Virus record (IMG/VR): IMGVR_UViG_3300024265_000171
Location: 1-28,767 of that record
Strand: one strand, 5' to 3'
Origin: a virus
Length of the DNA stretch: 28,767 bases
Shown here: positions 4,901 through 19,499 of the stretch, one piece after another
How positions within the stretch are numbered: the first letter of the stretch is position 1
Layout: each line of letters starts with the position of its first letter
Notes under the pieces: model-generated
Told to the model about the DNA's origin: nothing
The model's input: the letters and a program-made list of their open reading frames with translations, nothing else
The model's database searches: none
Made by a program: the position numbers and the translations under genes

Positions 4901-5842
4901 ATGGAGAATTCAAACAAAAAAACAGGAACATCAAAGCTTAGAGAATTACAAGCTTTACCGCTTGATGAAAAAATAAAGTTATCTATAGACGCTGTTAAAT
5001 GTTGGCATGAGGCCTGGTCCGGTGATGTTTATATTAGTTTTTCAGGCGGCAAAGATTCAACGGTATTAAAACATTTGGTTCTGTCTCTTTTTCCTGATAT
5101 TCTTTCGGTCTTTGTCAATACTGGCTTGGAATTCCCTGAAATTGTTAGCTTTGTAAAAACACATGATAATGTAAAAATTATAAGGCCAAAAATGCCATTT
5201 CATAAAGTTATTGAAAAATGGGGTTATCCTGTAATTTCTAAGCGGACAGCTCAATATATTCATGAAGTTAAAAACGCAAAAGGAAACACAGCCACGAAGC
5301 GGTTAAGATTGACCGGTATTAAAACAGACGGCCGGTTTTTCCAAATGTCTATGATTCCTAAAAAATGGCAGTATCTTTGCGATGCACCCTTTAAGATTTC
5401 TCATCGATGTTGTTTCGAGTTGAAAAAGAAACCCTTTGCGCTCATTGAAAAAGACTTAACTGCCTTCACCGGCATGATGGCAGGAGACGGAAACCAGCGC
5501 GAAATGACCTACTTGCAGCATGGTGGGTGTAATCAATATGAGATCCGCATCCCAAAATCAAACCCTTTGGCTTTTTGGATAGAAGCCGACATTTGGGAAT
5601 ATATCAAGCGTTTTGATGTGCCATACTCGAGCGTTTACGACATGGGATACGAGCGTACAGGCTGTGTTTTTTGCTTATTTGGAGTCCACCTGGAACACCA
5701 AAAAACCGGAACAAACCGGATTATACGGTTAAAAAAGACACACCCTAAGCTTTGGAAATACTGTGTTTATAAGCTTGGGATCGGCCGGGTCATGGATTAT
5801 ATCCATATACCTTATGAAGACAGACAGCTTAAACTTTTTTAA
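4901..5842 (+). CDS. PAPS reductase / adenine nucleotide alpha-hydrolase family protein
   Basis: PP-loop ATP-pyrophosphatase fold of the phosphoadenylylsulfate reductase (CysH/DndC-like) family. The PP-loop SGGKDS is at residues 48-53, followed by a VFVNTGLEFPE strand-turn (71-80) typical of the family. Cysteines at 160, 170, 171, 210, 255 and 258 (HRCCFELKK and RTGCVFC) could hold an iron-sulfur cluster. Length 313, within the range of phage members. In phages these enzymes are suspected of nucleotide or base sulfur chemistry, or of altering host sulfur assimilation. No dnd-type partners are visible, so substrate and product are open. AGAGGAAAA precedes the start. Confidence 0.88.
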   Translation: MENSNKKTGTSKLRELQALPLDEKIKLSIDAVKCWHEAWSGDVYISFSGGKDSTVLKHLVLSLFPDILSVFVNTGLEFPEIVSFVKTHDNVKIIRPKMPFHKVIEKWGYPVISKRTAQYIHEVKNAKGNTATKRLRLTGIKTDGRFFQMSMIPKKWQYLCDAPFKISHRCCFELKKKPFALIEKDLTAFTGMMAGDGNQREMTYLQHGGCNQYEIRIPKSNPLAFWIEADIWEYIKRFDVPYSSVYDMGYERTGCVFCLFGVHLEHQKTGTNRIIRLKKTHPKLWKYCVYKLGIGRVMDYIHIPYEDRQLKLF

Positions 5843-7591: not shown

Positions 7592-8923
7592 TTAATAGTT
7601 TGGTTCATATGCTAAATTTTTAAATGTAGTTGTTTTTTTATTCCAGTGAAGTTTTGCCATACCAGTAGGCCCGTTGCGCTGTTTTGCTATATTAAACTCG
7701 GCAATACTCTTGTTCGGGTTGTTTTCATCGTCGTTATAAACTTCATCTCGATACAGAAATGCTATAATATCGGCATCCTGTTCGATATTACCAGAGTCGC
7801 GCAAGTCTGACAGCCGTGGTTTTTTATCGGTTCGCTTTTCCAGTTCCCGGTTTAGTTGTGATAATAAAATCACAGGCACTTCTAGTTCCTTCGCAAGCGC
7901 CTTTAATCCGGCCGTAATAGAGCCAATTTCACGATCCCGGGTGGAACCCTTATCCCCCTGGACAAGCTGAAGGTGGTCAATAATAAATAGTTTAATCCCT
8001 TCTTTTTTCTTTATTTCCCATGCTCTCCTGCGGATCTCATTGTAATGAAGAGAAGCAGAATCATCAAGAAATACAGGCCATGTGGTTATTTTACCCAATG
8101 CCTCTGTGATTTTAAACCAATCATCTTGTTTGAAATTGCCAGATCTAAATCTTTGGGAATTAACTCCGCTTTCCCCCGCTGTCTGTCTTGCGTAAAGTTG
8201 ACGTTTAGACATTTCTAAGGAAAATATCGCCACGGGAACACCTTTTTCTCCTAAATATCCAGCTATATTAATCGCCAACGCTGTTTTTCCCATGCTCGGC
8301 CTTGCTGCGATGACAATTAGGTCTGTGTCTTGAAGGCCGCACGTTATTGAATCAACCACATGAAATCCTGTTGCCAATCCGGTAATTTTCTCTTTCTGGT
8401 TGGATATTTCTTCATAATGATCTACTTCTGAGTTTGTTAATTCTCCATATGAAACAAACGTACCACCGGCCCCAGTATCGATTTCGCTTATTTGCTTTTG
8501 GGTTTGATCGATTATAGACTCGATATTTTCCTGATCTTCAAAACATTGCCTGGCAGTATTGTGTGATATTTCAATCATTTTTCTTAGGGCATATTTGTCT
8601 CTGATTATTTGGATGTGATGTTTAATATTATGACTTATAGGGATCTCGTCTACTAATCTTGCTAAATAGGTGGCTCCACCAATTTCTTCTAACTGTTTCA
8701 GTTCTCTAAGTTTTGTCGAAACCTCCACTAAACCTGGCGCAATATCTTTGTTTAATAATTCAAGAATAACGGTATATATCTTTTGGTGAGCAGTTTTATA
8801 AAAATGCTCTGGTAATAATTGTAGTGCAATATCGTCTGTATAACCCAAAAGACATGAGGCTAATATTGATACCTCAACGTCTAAATCTTGTGGCGGTACA
8901 TGGTTAGTTATCATATAATTCAT
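7592..8923 (-). CDS. dnaB: Replicative DNA helicase, DnaB family
   Basis: Hexameric 5'-3' helicase that unwinds the replication fork. The N-terminal DnaB domain spans roughly residues 8-115. A linker precedes the RecA-like domain with Walker A ARPSMGKT (207-214), Walker B LFIIDHLQL (312-320), a LSQLNRELEKR sensor/loop (354-364), the SDLRDSGNIEQDAD block (372-385) and an arginine-finger region ending in KQRNGPTG (414-421). Full length for the family at 443. The start overlaps the preceding replisome-organiser gene by 20 bases. ATG codons at residues 1 and 4 are both possible. With its own helicase, the phage needs less host DnaB. Confidence 0.96.
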   Translation of the reverse strand: MNYMITNHVPPQDLDVEVSILASCLLGYTDDIALQLLPEHFYKTAHQKIYTVILELLNKDIAPGLVEVSTKLRELKQLEEIGGATYLARLVDEIPISHNIKHHIQIIRDKYALRKMIEISHNTARQCFEDQENIESIIDQTQKQISEIDTGAGGTFVSYGELTNSEVDHYEEISNQKEKITGLATGFHVVDSITCGLQDTDLIVIAARPSMGKTALAINIAGYLGEKGVPVAIFSLEMSKRQLYARQTAGESGVNSQRFRSGNFKQDDWFKITEALGKITTWPVFLDDSASLHYNEIRRRAWEIKKKEGIKLFIIDHLQLVQGDKGSTRDREIGSITAGLKALAKELEVPVILLSQLNRELEKRTDKKPRLSDLRDSGNIEQDADIIAFLYRDEVYNDDENNPNKSIAEFNIAKQRNGPTGMAKLHWNKKTTTFKNLAYEPNY

Positions 8924-9677
8924 CCACGTTTTCTGGAGTTATTTCTTTTTGTGTTCTGGACTTTTCCTGTTTCGGCATCTTAACCCATAATTTATCAAAC
9001 TGCTTCCGTAGTTTACTTGTAGACAAAATATTTGCTTTCCAAAAATCATCTTGTTGACACCAAATAATTACTTTTCGTAGTTCATCCGGTGTGCGTTTAT
9101 CAATCCGTATTGATAGATCAATATGGGAACACCATTTCTGTAAATTTGGTTTTTTAAATTTTGGATTATTTTTAAGGATAAGATTAAATAGAAAAGAAGA
9201 TAATTCAAATTCATCTGAATTCTCACTAAAGATATTATTATCATTCTTTTCATTCTTGTTATGTACCGCTGCTGTACCGTCGCCGTTCTCCTGCTCGTTC
9301 GTTCGCTGTTTCTTTCGTGGTTTCAACATGGGTTGTAAGTCGTTATAATTACATATAGTAAACAAGGTTCCTGCCTGTATCGTTCGTTGTGTTATTCGTG
9401 CGTCCTTCGTAAGTTCTTCGCAAATTCTTCGTACCGTGCTCAAAGACGGCTTTTTTAACCTGTATCCGATCTTATAAGCACAGTCGTTTTGTATGGTCCG
9501 GAGACTTCGGATTAACTGCCCCCTTTTTATCGGAATACCTAAAAATTTATTATCGGCATGATTGGCCTTCCCTAATAAATAGAGCCATATTTTAAGCTTC
9601 CAAGGGCTTGCAAACCAGATGTCGGAACTGAATATCTTCCGATCAATTGTGAATTTAGTCCCTTCACCTTCCCTCAT
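8904..9677 (-). CDS. Phage replisome organiser / helicase-loader-like protein
   Basis: Two hundred and fifty-seven residues. The N-terminal part (IFSSDIWFASPWKLKIWLYLLGKANHAD, about 15-42) and the following winged-helix segment with STVRRICEELTKD match the conserved phage replisome-organiser/DnaD-like N-terminus, which binds origin DNA. A polar linker around 120-155 leads to a helical C-terminal domain (TPDELRKVIIWCQQDDFWKANILSTSKLRKQFDKL), typical of regions contacting the helicase. Directly upstream of and overlapping dnaB, the classic loader-helicase arrangement. The exact loading role is inferred. Confidence 0.82.
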   Translation of the reverse strand: MREGEGTKFTIDRKIFSSDIWFASPWKLKIWLYLLGKANHADNKFLGIPIKRGQLIRSLRTIQNDCAYKIGYRLKKPSLSTVRRICEELTKDARITQRTIQAGTLFTICNYNDLQPMLKPRKKQRTNEQENGDGTAAVHNKNEKNDNNIFSENSDEFELSSFLFNLILKNNPKFKKPNLQKWCSHIDLSIRIDKRTPDELRKVIIWCQQDDFWKANILSTSKLRKQFDKLWVKMPKQEKSRTQKEITPENVDELYDN

Positions 9678-10765: not shown

Positions 10766-11986
10766 ATGTCTGAAAAAACAATGGACGTAACAGCAGCCCT
10801 TGACCATTTAAGAGAATCACACCCAGATGAAGCTAATTGGCTGGATCAGGTTTATAAAAGGGATGTGGTGGCTCTGGGAACGGATGAATCATACGCTTTA
10901 AGGGACTCAGAAGGCGAAATAAGGTGCTATAAAGAAATGTTGACCCTTTCCACTGCTAATGATGGCTTGGTGAAGATACAGGGCAGGCATACCATATCAG
11001 CACAAGGATATGAAGCCTGGGCCGATGCTGTTGGGGCCTCCGTTATTTTTCCGGCCTCTGTCGTGGTAGACGGTAAAAAAATTGGCAATCCACATCTAAT
11101 CAAAGAAAGTGGAAAGGTGGTTTCTGTTTATGCCCGGGCAATAGCTTTCAGATTTTCCGGCAAAGGTGTACCCATGGCATCTGATTGGACCACCATTCTT
11201 GATCTTCGTATATATAAGATGATTGATTTCTTAGCCAAAACAAAAGAATTCCCACAAGCATTTCAGTTTCTACCAAAAGAAGTGCTACCAGACGGAGCCG
11301 AGACAAACAGGTGGGCCGATTATCCTTTTGATGAGAGCACAACCCTTTGGTTCAACACCGCCCATCCAGAGGCTTTAAGGTGGCTATCAACGATTTTAAA
11401 CCGAGAAAAAAAAGCCGTTGATTACGCCCAGACCTTCGCAAAACGAAATGCACTTAAACATCTCTCTGGACTACAAAAACCTCCACAGAACGCAAGCGCG
11501 TGGCCCATGGTTGTATATTCCTGGCGTCCGATCCACGGCCAGATGATTAACTGGAATGCCACGAAATATCTTCAATTGCAAGATTCGGTTGAAAAACATA
11601 TCCATGGTGAGCAGATCCAGGTAGAAACCGGTACCGAGCGAGTTGAAGAAGATGCTGATCAGGTCGGCATGGAAGATACCATTGATATTGAAGATAAGCC
11701 CGAAACCGACGAGCAACCAGAGGAAATCACCCCAGAAGATAAAGAGGAAGCCATTGACGTAGAGGTTCAGGAAACGGAGCCCGAACCGGAAGTTGAAGAG
11801 CTGGACGCTGTTGAGGAATATTCTTCTGATGATAAAAAGATTGTCGAGTCTTATCAGAAAGCTAAATCCTTTTTTGATGATTATGCATATCCAGAAGCAT
11901 GTAAAAAATTAAAACTAGACCCCAAAGGAAAACATACCGTAGAACAGATGGAGCTAATCAATAAGGCTATTAATAATATGGTGTAA
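10766..11986 (+). CDS. Large early protein with acidic tail; possible recombination protein
   Basis: Four hundred and six residues after AAGGAGAATTAG. The N-terminal ~275 residues look like one folded domain, with LVKIQGRHTISAQGYEAWADAVGAS and a conserved-looking YAQTFAKRNALKHLSG helix. Residues about 285-355 are extremely rich in Glu and Asp with repeated DIE/EEIT/PE motifs. The C-terminal ~50 residues form another small helical domain. I do not recognise the family. Position directly upstream of a Rad50-like ATPase pair suggests DNA recombination, perhaps single-strand annealing, and the FAKRNAL helix loosely recalls annealing proteins; that is inference. Confidence 0.78.
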   Translation: MSEKTMDVTAALDHLRESHPDEANWLDQVYKRDVVALGTDESYALRDSEGEIRCYKEMLTLSTANDGLVKIQGRHTISAQGYEAWADAVGASVIFPASVVVDGKKIGNPHLIKESGKVVSVYARAIAFRFSGKGVPMASDWTTILDLRIYKMIDFLAKTKEFPQAFQFLPKEVLPDGAETNRWADYPFDESTTLWFNTAHPEALRWLSTILNREKKAVDYAQTFAKRNALKHLSGLQKPPQNASAWPMVVYSWRPIHGQMINWNATKYLQLQDSVEKHIHGEQIQVETGTERVEEDADQVGMEDTIDIEDKPETDEQPEEITPEDKEEAIDVEVQETEPEPEVEELDAVEEYSSDDKKIVESYQKAKSFFDDYAYPEACKKLKLDPKGKHTVEQMELINKAINNMV

Positions 11987-12000
11987 AAAAGGAGTATTTC

Positions 12001-12252
12001 ATGGAAATAATTGGGAAGACCGCAAGCGGGTTTATTGTAAGCATTCCAAAAGATGATTTAGAGATGTTGACCGGACATTATTATGGGAAAAGCAGGTTTT
12101 ATATAGGGCAGAAATTGGTTGTTGACAAGCTGTACAATCAATTGACCAGGCTCACCACCCATGAAAAAGATATCAAAAAACTGGCTCACAGCCTAAAGAC
12201 CGCTGCCGGAATGCTGGAAAAGATAGATCCGGTTTTTGAACAGAAGAAATAA
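12001..12252 (+). CDS. Small coiled-coil-prone protein
   Basis: Eighty-three residues, with AAAAAAGGAGTATTTC before the start. The N-terminal part is beta-like (EIIGKTASGFIVSIPKDDLEML) and the C-terminal half is one long amphipathic helix (DKLYNQLTRLTTHEKDIKKLAHSLKTAAGML). It is 16 bases before the N-terminal half of the split Rad50-like ATPase and could be an accessory subunit of it. Family not recognised. Confidence 0.72.
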   Translation: MEIIGKTASGFIVSIPKDDLEMLTGHYYGKSRFYIGQKLVVDKLYNQLTRLTTHEKDIKKLAHSLKTAAGMLEKIDPVFEQKK

Positions 12253-12268
12253 TCAAAGGAGTTTCGTA

Positions 12269-13333
12269 ATGATATCAGCGGTAAAAGCAAAGGGATTTAA
12301 AGGTCTGACTTTCACTCAAGAACTCGGACCTAAAAACATTTTCTTTGGTGGCAATGGTTCAGGGAAGTCTGCCAGGAAAGAGGCGCTTATTCTTGGAGTC
12401 AACGGCCCTACAGGAAAACAAAACTCCGCGGTATTAAATGCTTACGGCAAAGGGGAAAATCCCGTTGAAGTCGGTATAAAGATCGTTGATACTTGGTTTG
12501 ATCGCATATTCAAAAAGGCCAAATCCAGCGTTACCCAAATCCACAAGATTAATAATAAAAAGGTGGATAAAATTAAATTCGCCACCGAAATGGGGAAGGC
12601 TATCGGGACAGTCAGCGCCTTTGATGTTTCCAGTTTTGTGGATGCTTCTGATAAGAAAAAAATCTCACAGGTATTTGATTTATTCCCGCCCGAAGGTGAT
12701 GTTAGCTCTGTGGAAGATGAAATTGACGCACTTAAAACAGAGATTAACGCCAGGCATGCATCTATACGAGTGGCAGAGGAATTGGTTGCCAAGCTTACAA
12801 AATCAATTGCCGAAACCGAACTACCACCCGGGACCTTGGCTATGACAGTGAATGATAAAGAAAAAATTGCCAATGAAATCGATGTTGTTCAAGCTGAGAT
12901 CCAAAAAGAAAAAGATGCAGAGGCCAAGCGTATAGCAGATGAAAAAACGAAAAAAGCAGAGGACGATGCCAGGGTTGAGGAAAAGGCAAAAGCCAAGGAA
13001 CAGGCAGATAAAACGGCCAAGAAAACGGCAGCAGATACCAAGCGCCAGGTAGAAGTAGCCGTAATAGAGACAGAAAAACAACACATCTCTCCAGACGGAG
13101 TCGCTGCAGAACAACAAATGCTTAACAAAATGTCACCCAAAAAACGCGCCCAGATCGTAGATCCTCAACAAGTTGCCTCCAATAGTTATGATGTGGGCAT
13201 TAAAGCCGTTGAAACGATCATAGATGTTATCAATAACATGAAAGAATGTAATAACTGCTTTGCGGAAATGGTGGCCAATGCAGAGCTTAAGAAGCTGTTT
13301 GAACTTAAAAAAACTTCGATGATTAAATTCTAA
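12269..13333 (+). CDS. Rad50/SMC-like ATPase, N-terminal half (Walker A, coiled coil, CxxC)
   Basis: Three hundred and fifty-four residues. The ATG at 12269 is chosen over one 11 codons upstream because AAAGGAGTTTCGTA precedes it. It opens like RecF/SMC/Rad50 N-lobes (ISAVKAKGFKGLTF), and Walker A GGNGSGKS is at 27-34. The lobe continues to about residue 140. Long charged helices follow (about 145-290, rich in Lys, Glu and Ala), then a CNNC motif at 327-330, 24 residues from the end, placed like the zinc hook at the tip of Rad50. There is no ABC signature or Walker B; those are in the gene at 13973. Likely the nucleotide-binding half of a two-subunit DNA-repair/recombination ATPase. Confidence 0.85.
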   Translation: MISAVKAKGFKGLTFTQELGPKNIFFGGNGSGKSARKEALILGVNGPTGKQNSAVLNAYGKGENPVEVGIKIVDTWFDRIFKKAKSSVTQIHKINNKKVDKIKFATEMGKAIGTVSAFDVSSFVDASDKKKISQVFDLFPPEGDVSSVEDEIDALKTEINARHASIRVAEELVAKLTKSIAETELPPGTLAMTVNDKEKIANEIDVVQAEIQKEKDAEAKRIADEKTKKAEDDARVEEKAKAKEQADKTAKKTAADTKRQVEVAVIETEKQHISPDGVAAEQQMLNKMSPKKRAQIVDPQQVASNSYDVGIKAVETIIDVINNMKECNNCFAEMVANAELKKLFELKKTSMIKF

Positions 13334-13337
13334 AACC

Positions 13338-13973
13338 ATGAAAACAAGACCGATAATATTTCAACCCGACTCGGTTCGGGCGATTTTTGGTGGTAGGAAA
13401 TCGCAGACACGAAGGATTGTTAATATTCGCCCTGGAGATCATTTTAACACCAACAAGATTGAAGTCGGAATGGTTTCCGGTGATAAGGGCGAATATTACG
13501 GGTTTACGTCAGAAGAATATGACTACAAATGCCCCTACGGAGTTCCCGGCGACAGGCTTTGGGTCAGAGAATCTTGGTGCGTTCATGCCCGATATGACGG
13601 ACTCAGACCAAAGGTGTTGCCCGAGATAAAATACCTGCAAAATGCCGTAACGCATATGGCAGATGTTTACAAAGCCGAAAAGTCTTTATGGATGGGCAAG
13701 ACACGACCATCAATATTTATGCCCCGTAAATATTCCCGCCTTACGCTCGAAATCACGAATATCAGGGTTGAGAGGGTGCAGGATATAAGCACGCATGATG
13801 CTTATTGGGAGGGTGTTGAAGATTGCGATGTGTTCGGTCACGATGATTGTTTTTATGGAACTGTTGGCAGGGTGTGTTCATTCGAAAGACTTTGGGACAA
13901 GATGCACGGCAAAAAATACCCCTGGTCAAGCAATCCCTGGGTTTGGGTGATTGAATTTAAAAAGGAGCCATAA
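13338..13973 (+). CDS. ASCH-domain protein inserted between the ATPase halves
   Basis: Two hundred and eleven residues. MKTRPIIFQPDSVRAIFGGRKSQTRR and later YGVPGDRLWVRESW, then SIFMPRKYSRLTLEITNIRVERVQDIS, are the signatures of the phage-borne ASCH (PUA-like) family, which binds RNA or modified bases. It begins 4 bases after the N-half of the ATPase and overlaps the C-half by one base (TAATG). The ribosome site is poor, so it may rely on coupling. The last strand WVWVIEFKKE completes the barrel, so it seems intact. Whether it works with the ATPase or merely hitchhiked into the split is open. Confidence 0.85.
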   Translation: MKTRPIIFQPDSVRAIFGGRKSQTRRIVNIRPGDHFNTNKIEVGMVSGDKGEYYGFTSEEYDYKCPYGVPGDRLWVRESWCVHARYDGLRPKVLPEIKYLQNAVTHMADVYKAEKSLWMGKTRPSIFMPRKYSRLTLEITNIRVERVQDISTHDAYWEGVEDCDVFGHDDCFYGTVGRVCSFERLWDKMHGKKYPWSSNPWVWVIEFKKEP

Positions 13974-14557
13974 TGACACAAATACCAGAACTAGAACAGC
14001 AACTACAGGGACTCAAGGCAAGAAAACTTGAACTTGAAGCCAACGAAAAGATTTTTATAAAGGTCCAGGGTTTGACAGAAAGCATGGAGAAAACTCGGGC
14101 TGAAATTGGGGGCCTAGAGGATGATAACACCCCAGCAAAAGAGTCTCTATCCGAACTCGAATACAAAAGGGCTCAGTTAATCAAAAAACCCTTGATGATA
14201 ATGCAAGAATCTATGGACTCTGTAATGCCAGAAGGGAAATCTGCCATTATAGAAATTACAGATGAAAATGAGGTTAAGTTCGGAATTTTATCAACCGGTC
14301 CCGATGGAGTTGTGTTTTCGCCACACGCAGGTTTGTCAGGATCAGAGCAGGTCATGTTCGACCAGGCCCTCACCTTTGCGCTCATGAAGAATTCTGATCA
14401 TGTGATATTGTGTTATGAAGCAGCCGAAATTGATGATAACGGTCTGGTAGAACTGATAAAATCATTACATGACCAGAAAGGCGCTCAGATTATTGTAAAT
14501 TCATGCCACAACCCAGATGTAACATTTAGCAAAGAATGGAATACGGTTCAATTATAA
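13973..14557 (+). CDS. Rad50/SMC-like ATPase, C-terminal half (signature motif, degenerate Walker B)
   Basis: One hundred and ninety-four residues. The first ~75 are coiled coil (LEQQLQGLKARKLELEANEK, ESLSELEYKRAQLIKK). Then comes a C-lobe with the ABC signature LSGSE (121-125) followed by a QALTFALM helix, the Walker B strand VILCYE (144-149) and D-loop Asp154, then a final IIVNSCHNP strand with the H-loop-like His179. The usual Walker B aspartate is replaced (Cys147/Tyr148) while Glu149 is kept. It lacks Walker A, which the gene at 12269 supplies. AAGGAGCCATA precedes the start. Expected to dimerise with the N-half through the coiled coils. Confidence 0.85.
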   Translation: MTQIPELEQQLQGLKARKLELEANEKIFIKVQGLTESMEKTRAEIGGLEDDNTPAKESLSELEYKRAQLIKKPLMIMQESMDSVMPEGKSAIIEITDENEVKFGILSTGPDGVVFSPHAGLSGSEQVMFDQALTFALMKNSDHVILCYEAAEIDDNGLVELIKSLHDQKGAQIIVNSCHNPDVTFSKEWNTVQL

Positions 14558-15851: not shown

Positions 15852-16009
15852 TGGAACTTATAAAATTTATATTTAGTGGGTTTTGGATATTTTTTGGGTT
15901 CTTGGTATTAATATGTGCAATTTCAAATAGACATTGGAATATCAGAAAACACGGATACCCACCATCCCACTGTGATGCCGATGGAGATTTCAAGAAAGAA
16001 GAATCTTAA
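15848..16009 (+). CDS. Small membrane-anchored protein with HCDADGDF motif
   Basis: Fifty-three residues with one membrane helix (FIFSGFWIFFGFLVLICAI, about 7-25) followed by RHWNIRKHGYPPSHCDADGDF, a motif I recognise as recurring in tiny phage proteins of unknown role. It starts at tandem ATGs overlapping the previous stop (ATGA) and ends one base before the ASCH gene, so all three are probably translated together. Confidence 0.72.
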   Translation: MMELIKFIFSGFWIFFGFLVLICAISNRHWNIRKHGYPPSHCDADGDFKKEES

Positions 16010-16010
16010 G

Positions 16011-16472
16011 ATGAAAGTGATTAGTTTATGGCAGCCATGGGCCTCCTTGATGGCCTGGGGAATAAAAACAATCGAAACGAGACATTGGCCGTTACCTCAA
16101 AACATAAAAGGGCCGATAGCTATCCATGCCGCAAAAAAGTTAGTTAAAGTCAAAGATCCTTATTTCGAGGATGCTTTGTTGGAGCGCAATTTGTCTTACA
16201 ATGATCTGCCGAGAGGGTTTATTCTTTGCTATTTTGACACAGTAGAATGTATCCTGATCAACTACCGGCAAGATGGTGTGCCGGATTATCCAGAAAGAGC
16301 TTTTGGAGATTATACACCAGGACGATATATGTGGAAAATGAAAGGATTGAATGTATTGCCGTGGCCACTAATGATCCAGGGAAGGCAGGGAATATGGAAC
16401 TGGAACACAAGCGAACATCCAATTCCCTCAAATGATGTAGCAAAACCAGAACAGCAATTAAAATTGTTTTAA
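16011..16472 (+). CDS. ASCH-domain protein (second copy in window)
   Basis: One hundred and fifty-three residues from the ATG at 16011. A 32-codon upstream extension would overlap the small membrane gene and is rejected. MKVISLWQPWASLMAWGIKTIETRHWP is the textbook ASCH N-terminus: aromatic strand, WASL, GxKxxExR. GPIAIHAAKKL follows and the last part ends WNWN. ASCH proteins are PUA-like RNA or nucleotide binders; some related members deacetylate modified cytidine. It is divergent from the ASCH protein at 13338, so the two are not a recent duplication. Confidence 0.9.
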   Translation: MKVISLWQPWASLMAWGIKTIETRHWPLPQNIKGPIAIHAAKKLVKVKDPYFEDALLERNLSYNDLPRGFILCYFDTVECILINYRQDGVPDYPERAFGDYTPGRYMWKMKGLNVLPWPLMIQGRQGIWNWNTSEHPIPSNDVAKPEQQLKLF

Positions 16473-17732: not shown

Positions 17733-19499
17733 ATGTTAAACCAACAACAAAAAGAAGCCGCTGAAACCAGCTCTAACCAGGTTCTTGTATTAGCACCACC
17801 CGGCTCAGGTAAGACCGCGACCATTACAGAAAGGGCTGCATATCTAATTGAACAAAAACAAGTGTCTGGATATGAATTATTACTTTTGACATTCACAAGA
17901 CGAGCTTCAAGAGAGATGCGCGAAAGACTTCATAAACGAGTCGGCAATCAGGCTTACAAAATGACAATAGGGACATTTCATGCTGTGGCCCTGAACCTTC
18001 TCAATCGATTTGGGGAGCTTATTGGATTCCAGAAAGAATATAGTACTGTGTATGGAAATTTTGAGGAACAATATCTAATAAAAGATGTTGCCAGAGATAT
18101 GGGATATTATGACGGAAAGCGGTGGAAAAAGATCAAAAAAGGGCAAATTGATGCCATTTTTGCCGATTATTATCACAGAGGTATTGAGCCTGGTCCAGCC
18201 GCACCTGGATATGATTTCTTTAAAGCTTTCGTTTTTAGATGCCGTGAGAATAATAGTTTTACTTATGGATCGTTACTCATAGGGTTAAGATCGCTTCTGC
18301 CCAAAATATCACAGTATTTACACTGGAAGCACATAATTACAGATGAAAGCCAGGACACCGACCCCTTACAGTGGAGCATAATTCGTCAAATTCAAGATCT
18401 ATGCGAAGCCACCCTGTTTTGTGTTTCAGACACGGACCAGGCTATTTACGGTTTTCGTGGAGCCGATACTGGATATTTGATCAGGCACCAGCACGAATTT
18501 GACATCCATGAACTGAAAACCAATTACCGTTCAGATGCCAACATAGTCAATGCCGCCAACCGATTAATCGAACACAACACAGACAGGCTTGAAAAGACAA
18601 TGGCCCCCAACTTGGTGTCGATGTTAGAAATACTGGAGATCCCCAATGTTGACAGTGAAGGCCTGGTAAAAGTCATCAAAACTTTAATAGAAAACAGTCC
18701 TGACACAAAACGAGCCGTTCTTGGCCGGGTCCATGGTATCTTGCAGAAGTTATCCCGGTTATTGGAAGAAGAAGGAATTGATCATACCTACATCGGAAAG
18801 AAAACGGCCTTAACCAATTCGGAGGATTTTCGTCGGTTTCATGCATTTTTTAAACTGATCGTAAACCCCTTTGATAACTTCAGTTTTTTACTTGCTCATA
18901 CTTTATTGGGTGTTTCCCGTGAAACATACGGAAAAATTCGGGTTGCAGCTTCCCAGGAGCACAAAAGCCACTTTCAGGTATGGCAAGAGCTGCCGGGCAT
19001 ATTTAATTTTGCATCTGCTCATGATGAACATGGATGGGAATTAAAAGCTACCATGGCGTATGTTGGGTTGACGATAAAAGAACGGTTTGTAGGATGTGCA
19101 GATGATAGTACGGAGGAAATCGAATCTTTTGTCCAGGCATGGATAGACGATAATCCCAACGGAGATATCAGAGACTACATGGAATGGCTTGCAACTTTTG
19201 ATATCCAGGATGAAATGGCAGAGGAACAACCCCTTTTGACGCTATTAACGGGCCATGCCGCCAAAGGGTGTGAGTGGCCGACTGTTATTATTGCGGGGAC
19301 TAATGAGGGTTTGATACCGTCCAAACAGGCTATTAAAAGCGGGGATATTGAAGCAGAAAGAAGGCTTTTTTACACTATGATTACCCGTGCGGAGGATCGC
19401 TTGATAATTACAACCCGGCCCACAGAGAAGGTCAACGAATATACCGGAGCGATTTCACTGGAGCCGGTGTCACGATTTATAAATGAGATGAAAACTTAG
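17733..19499 (+). CDS. UvrD/PcrA-like superfamily 1 DNA helicase
   Basis: ATP-driven 3'-5' DNA helicase, 588 residues. Q-motif region LNQQQKEAA; Walker A APPGSGKT (21-28); motif Ia LLTFTRRASREMRERL; GTFHAVA (80-86); Walker B ITDESQDTD (202-210), where DES replaces the usual DEaQD; motif III SDTDQAIYGFRGA; TNYRS motif IV; motif V TGHAAKGCEW near residue 505; motif VI RRLFYTMITRAEDRL near the end. Shorter than cellular UvrD (about 720), as phage versions often are. AAAGGGAGATAAAA precedes the start. It probably supports recombination or repair together with the ATPase pair. Confidence 0.95.
   Translation: MLNQQQKEAAETSSNQVLVLAPPGSGKTATITERAAYLIEQKQVSGYELLLLTFTRRASREMRERLHKRVGNQAYKMTIGTFHAVALNLLNRFGELIGFQKEYSTVYGNFEEQYLIKDVARDMGYYDGKRWKKIKKGQIDAIFADYYHRGIEPGPAAPGYDFFKAFVFRCRENNSFTYGSLLIGLRSLLPKISQYLHWKHIITDESQDTDPLQWSIIRQIQDLCEATLFCVSDTDQAIYGFRGADTGYLIRHQHEFDIHELKTNYRSDANIVNAANRLIEHNTDRLEKTMAPNLVSMLEILEIPNVDSEGLVKVIKTLIENSPDTKRAVLGRVHGILQKLSRLLEEEGIDHTYIGKKTALTNSEDFRRFHAFFKLIVNPFDNFSFLLAHTLLGVSRETYGKIRVAASQEHKSHFQVWQELPGIFNFASAHDEHGWELKATMAYVGLTIKERFVGCADDSTEEIESFVQAWIDDNPNGDIRDYMEWLATFDIQDEMAEEQPLLTLLTGHAAKGCEWPTVIIAGTNEGLIPSKQAIKSGDIEAERRLFYTMITRAEDRLIITTRPTEKVNEYTGAISLEPVSRFINEMKT

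Follow-up and report, generated by a model that had tools for sequence, protein, structure and literature searches.

Rad50/SMC ATPases are normally made as one chain, in which the arms hold the two half-heads together. In Rad50, SbcC and T4 gp46, a Walker A N-lobe and an LSGGE C-lobe form an ABC head that carries coiled-coil arms with a CxxC near the tip. The N- and C-lobes are separate chains forming one head in the Rad50 structures 1f2t, 1ii8 and 3qkr, which we take to be engineered constructs. Among phage enzymes, several are split over two genes and reassemble, including NrdA-a/b of phage Aeh1 and gp43A/B, the DNA polymerase of Aeromonas phage 25, and T4 topoisomerase is one more; in some phages a foreign gene lies between the parts of such an enzyme (PMC2988022). 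In phage recombination modules, SMC genes lie beside recT/red-beta and sbcC beside sak4 (PMC8093625). A naturally split Rad50 or SMC gene had no precedent in the open-licence literature that we searched. The locus described here probably holds such a gene, conserved within a phage recombination cassette.

The window, that is, the whole stretch of DNA analysed, is a 28.8-kb uncultivated virus record (Table 1). An earlier sequence-only reading had described the gene at 12269 as carrying Walker A, a helical arm and CNNC without a signature motif, and this description proved correct, with coordinates exact to the base. For the gene at 13973, the coiled coil at its start, LSGSE, the Walker B strand and the absence of Walker A were all found as described; the canonical Walker B aspartate, however, is missing, and a tyrosine occupies its position. 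The gene between the halves is indeed set off from the N-half by a 4-base gap and overlaps the C-half by 1 base, and the N-half gene has its own Shine-Dalgarno-like box at about 12255-12261. In profile searches against solved structures, the C-half matched the C-lobes of SMC3 (4e-8) and Rad50 (4e-5). The N-half alone resembled Pfam AAA_23 only weakly, at E 0.0023, which does not reach the cut-off, and its first 88 residues matched the SMC-like PHROG 32642; no Pfam or PHROG model spans the full length of either half.

Table 1. Genes and motifs of the split ATPase locus, in window coordinates.
Feature	Position	Strand	Basis or remarks
406-aa protein, candidate single-strand annealing protein (PHROG 32428), first cassette gene	10766..11986	+	phrog_32428 E 8e-18
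N-half of the split Rad50-like ATPase	12269..13333	+	354 aa; Walker A lobe, ascending coiled-coil arm, hook-like CxxC hairpin near the C-terminus
Walker A GGNGSGKS	12347..12370	+	N-half residues 27-34; read from sequence
CNNC, hook-like CxxC	13247..13258	+	N-half residues 327-330; read from sequence
ASCH-type gene (PHROG 874), probable passenger between the halves	13338..13973	+	phrog_874 E 2e-61; at the N/C junction in no relative
Shine-Dalgarno-like AAGGAG of the C-half	13962..13967	+	read from sequence
C-half of the split ATPase	13973..14557	+	194 aa; descending coiled-coil arm, LSGSE, Walker B strand, D-loop, H-loop
Signature motif LSGSE	14333..14347	+	C-half residues 121-125; read from sequence
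Atypical Walker B and D-loop VILCYEAAEID	14402..14434	+	Tyr at the Asp position; Glu149 and Glu152 family-invariant
UvrD/Rep-type helicase, last cassette gene	17733..19499	+	Pfam UvrD-helicase E 1e-51, UvrD_C 1e-31, above the curated cut-off

Relatives were gathered by searches of viral contigs and genomes, which yielded 35 split genomes: 34 distinct loci, including the window and the MAG contig L014, and L074, a prophage-like locus in a genome from the same phylum as L014. In 35/35 genomes, N and C form two distinct ORFs next to each other, N first, and none of these genomes has a fused copy; the N and C profiles recover full-length separate partners with E values of about 1e-33 to 1e-148 per half. 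The split itself is thus real and beyond chance, as the sequence-only reading had proposed. The two ORFs are spaced by -16 to +21 nt in 30/35 genomes, often as an ATGA overlap, and a stretch of 192-1153 bases parts them in five. Because the halves are separate across 35 genomes, mostly without an insert, neither an error nor the ASCH gene can account for the break. A frameshift or one-off break confined to the window was ruled out, the split being the rule in the family. Each of 19 split virus records, up to 83 kb long, contains a single locus for the N-half and a single one for the C-half, which leaves neither with a second partner of its type in that record. The pairwise divergences of N and C are correlated (r 0.88, and 0.78 once the divergence of the annealase-like protein is removed), partly because of shared ancestry; the value for C against the annealase-like protein given N was 0.02. 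With the C-half profile, the split family was detected in 3/395 sampled genomes of the phylum of L014, other matches being weak and mostly to large SMC-type proteins. Searching a cultivated-phage collection by tblastn with the N-half, C-half and 406-aa protein of the window, the L008 N-half and the fused proteins of L068 and L069 returned nothing above noise, and megablast of the window region against cultivated phages found no homologue.

The motifs expected of an ABC ATPase are distributed over the two halves consistently. Walker A is present in 35/35 N-halves and CxxC in 34/35 (L026 lacks it), LSG is found in 34/35 C-halves, and the H-loop histidine in 31/35 members. In these 34 N-halves, CxxC begins 17-35 residues from the C-terminus, which places the break just past the hook-like motif. 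That this motif is the remnant of a hook, as had been suggested, is well supported at the level of sequence by its conservation and by a central CPxC in the fused relatives L067, L068 and L071. The Walker B aspartate is absent from 35/35 C-halves, its place being taken by Y, L, V, Q, S, I, A or K, and normal ATP hydrolysis is therefore uncertain. The fused protein of L068 lacks this aspartate too (GLFELAEAD), so the loss may be older than the split. Glu149, next to the lost aspartate position, and Glu152 are invariant in the 35 C-halves. An ungapped alignment with the fused relatives L067, L069 and L070 (LLLDNAEAID, LIIDEFQSLD and LVIDDAEQLD) puts Glu149 on the column of the catalytic glutamate, and the HMMER alignment to SMC/Rad50 puts it one position off, with a two-residue gap; by such a one-position shift, Glu149 may itself act as the Walker B acid. 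In a small subgroup, the C-halves of L063, L073 and L074, the D-loop aspartate is replaced by glycine (EAAELG or EGAELG).

The structure was predicted with AF2 for the N and C halves of L015 as a read-through, a locus used for this purpose because its halves share a reading frame and lie 18 nt apart; the stops were read as glycine, and the other genomes entered as trimmed N-only and C-only rows. The model has a mean pLDDT of 88, with about 95-98 over both lobes. Its top Foldseek match in the PDB is the SMC head 5xei (E 3.2e-15, probability 1.00), followed by cohesin, Rad50 and condensin heads, with low TM-scores that we attribute to the arms. The joined chain is thus predicted to form one ABC head. 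Its arms are about 70-110 residues long, a hinge is absent, and the N-half stretch before CxxC is partly predicted to be disordered. The CxxC lies between two short helices, which are followed by the break and then by an 84-residue helix of the C-half; in this model, the hook stays on the N-half. The joint prediction that the sequence-only reading had called for therefore gave one confident head, but for a single read-through chain of a relative and not for the two chains of the window.

The gene order around the halves is constant: an annealase-like gene, the N-half, the C-half and a UvrD-type helicase gene, an order kept in every split relative, as the synteny check proposed earlier brought out. 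The helicase gene lies 3' of the C-half, directly or within about 3 kb, in 34/34 two-half loci and in the prophage L074, and the cassette is located in the early region of phage genomes on dozens of unrelated contigs. A homologue of the 406-aa protein is encoded upstream of the N-half in 35/35 genomes with both halves, the window protein sharing 34-49% identity with its counterparts in split relatives, which bears out the suggestion that this acidic neighbour belongs to the same system. The same suggestion made for the small helical 83-aa protein (12001-12252) did not hold up, as no homologue was detectable in the loci of the relatives. The AF2 model of the 406-aa protein is a confident alpha/beta fold (pLDDT 80) with weak RAD52 fold hits (probability 0.51, E 0.2), and hhalign gave E 0.04 for RecT and 0.02 for ERF, no better than the 0.013 of an unrelated control; no significant RecT, ERF or RAD52 match was obtained with Pfam, PDB profiles, Foldseek or hhalign. 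We lean towards the view that the protein anneals DNA strands and that the cassette hence acts in recombination. A Mre11/SbcD/gp47-type metallophosphatase was sought with Pfam Metallophos in 21 virus records, possibly incomplete, without a match (a control search succeeded in 14/14 genomes), and no YqaJ nuclease partner was found in the split virus records.

Several further features of these regions were noted. Genes resembling NUMOD4-HNH homing endonucleases lie between the C-half and the UvrD gene in two relatives (L006:6534-7115 and L011:6492-7079), which marks the cassette as a target for mobile genes. The UvrD helicase of L026 (L026:4463-7120) is interrupted in frame by about 270 extra residues, which weakly match intein-splicing sequences and are probably an intein, and the UvrD homologue at L020:9791-11678 is matched as two pieces with a short gap, reflecting a frameshift, an insertion or another split gene. 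In the window, a DnaB-like replicative helicase and a DnaD-like loader are encoded at 7592-9677 on the minus strand and transcribed away from the cassette.

In two more distant phages, the place of the split halves between their two neighbours is taken by one Rad50/SMC-like gene, whose open frame has 655 codons in L068 and 713 in L069, the UvrD-type gene again being downstream. The search for fused versions that had been proposed earlier thus found single-chain genes in the very slot of the cassette, and no other finding argues as strongly that N and C together make up one ATPase. In a tree of the 406-aa protein, the members associated with split genes fall on one side of a branch with support 99 and the two rows associated with fused genes on the other, the latter with very long branches.

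The gene between the halves in the window had been proposed as a third component of the ATPase; such a three-part assembly would respond to a modified base or an RNA. Its position exactly between the halves speaks for this, and its tight spacing suggests that it is probably co-transcribed and translationally coupled with them. However, an ASCH gene is present at the junction in 0/34 relatives, and where a junction is interrupted it is by unrelated genes. Five kinds of insert occur: the ASCH-type gene of the window, a PAPS-reductase-like gene (L021), DUF5662 (L019), a 90-aa ORF (L014) and a 67-aa ORF (L034, and L035, its near-copy). L014, L034 and L021 have close neighbours on the tree without an insert, implying that insertion probably happened several times. 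L019, the sister and nearest relative of the window, has a different insert at its junction and a homologue of the window ASCH-type gene elsewhere on the other strand, and ASCH homologues sit away from the junction in several relatives. The proposal of a third subunit is therefore very unlikely, and the gene is best read as a passenger, most likely nothing else, at a junction that tolerates insertions. The name ASCH was given in the sequence-only reading; the gene at 13338-13973 has no Pfam match at E 1, so Pfam does not confirm the name. A second ASCH gene of the window (15915-16472, Pfam ASCH E 2.5e-4, PHROG 3193), which follows the ASCH-type gene at a distance of about 2 kb, again shows such genes away from the junction. 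The 90-aa ORF (L014:9002-9274) contains cysteines, is membrane-like and overlaps both halves by a few bases, and PAPS-reductase-like genes (PHROG 424) are found at 4901-5842 of the window and at L021:9212-9916, the latter being the insert between the ATPase halves.

With the ASCH gene set aside, the halves might still act apart, the N-half as a P-loop protein with some other partner and the C-half as a regulator without an ATP site of its own. They are separate genes, each with a ribosome-binding site, and the C-half, having lost the Walker B aspartate, may have drifted from catalysis; yet the single locus for each half per record with no other relative of either, their adjacency in 30/35 genomes, their tightly correlated divergence and the fused gene in the same slot of L068 and L069 make separate action quite improbable. 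The cell might instead make one continuous chain from the two frames, through recoding or through splicing of RNA or protein; their overlap by a few bases in many relatives and the intein-like insert in the UvrD of L026 speak for this. However, the 192-1153 bases between the frames in five genomes, with a whole ASCH gene in the window, mean that frameshifting cannot join N and C there, and translation of the C-half can begin at a start codon and ribosome-binding site of its own, so we give joining still less credence than a role for ASCH as a subunit. A broken gene, whether a pseudogene or a sequencing error, could not have been excluded from one window alone, but the same break with intact, conserved halves in 35 genomes has already refuted this idea and leaves it a negligible chance. 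A defence or anti-defence function, Lamassu-like or of another SMC type, concerns the role of the cassette rather than the split. The ATPases of defence systems are often SMC-like, the N-half of L003 has weak padloc matches (e.g. mad3 1e-7 and LmuB 1e-4), and the fold search also returned Lamassu and retron ATPases. These padloc matches are short or generic for P-loop and coiled-coil proteins, though, the cassette has no conserved effector nuclease or toxin, and it lies in the early phage region of dozens of unrelated contigs with a helicase adjoining; we consider such a function unlikely, if less so than the other alternatives.

The reading that we prefer, with a probability of roughly 0.75, is a conserved split Rad50/SMC-type ATPase of a phage recombination cassette with the ASCH gene as a passenger. 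Its core, that the two polypeptides belong to one Rad50/SMC-type ATPase, was already put forward in the sequence-only reading and is upheld by the fused relatives in the cassette, the joint predicted head and the occurrence of one of each half per record. The N-half would contribute the Walker A lobe, the ascending arm and the hook-like CxxC hairpin, and the C-half the descending arm and the lobe with the signature, the Walker B strand, the D-loop and the H-loop; in the cell, the two would co-fold into one head-and-arm unit. Two such units may pair by way of ATP between their heads, with zinc bound by CxxC at the tip as a possible second contact. Given the gene for a candidate annealing protein upstream and that for a UvrD-type helicase downstream, the ATPase most likely would work on DNA ends or replication forks, presumably in recombination. 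More speculatively, and in our judgement rather improbably, it could be a Rad50-type machine free of both Mre11 and the Walker B aspartate, in which ATP- and DNA-driven joining of the two chains, only one of them bearing the hook, and not classical hydrolysis, loads the annealing protein and UvrD onto DNA ends. A natural, conserved two-chain version would mean that chain continuity is dispensable, and the split ATPase would be a ready tool to test the roles of the hook, the arms and the Walker B aspartate.

How the phage system relates to those already described can be set out as follows. The cassette of annealase-like protein, split Rad50-like ATPase and UvrD was absent from the cultivated-phage collection searched, and its non-helicase proteins are unannotated in PHROGs; in gene content it resembles the phage recombination modules described previously (PMC8093625). 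As in Rad50 and SbcC, Walker A, coiled coil and signature lobes come together in one head (35/35, 34/35 and the L015 model). The CxxC at the turn of a helical hairpin in that model, present in 34/35 members, is a candidate zinc hook. In contrast to Rad50, SbcC and T4 gp46, the phage system consists of two genes, its Walker B aspartate is replaced, its arms are short and no Mre11/SbcD/gp47-type metallophosphatase was seen in the 21 records; neither a single polypeptide nor a canonical Walker B hhhhDE occurs in the 35 genomes. The SMC proteins (bacterial Smc and cohesin SMC1/3) are the closest matches in fold and C-lobe profile, but the phage system lacks a hinge domain, having a CxxC hairpin in its place, its arms are much shorter and it is made of two chains. 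The single-chain phage SMC-like proteins of L069 (PHROG 32642) and L068 share the slot between the annealase-like gene and UvrD and have a homologous N-lobe, whereas they are one chain of about 620-710 aa with low similarity to the split family outside the N-lobe. Split NrdA, gp43 and T4 topoisomerase are different enzymes in which the inserts are homing endonucleases, whereas most members of the Rad50-like split are insert-free and the inserts, where present, are of five kinds. Split phage enzymes and two-chain Rad50 heads are thus already known, and what is new relative to the open-licence literature is a naturally split Rad50/SMC gene which, unlike the engineered Rad50 heads, is conserved and retains its arms and CxxC.
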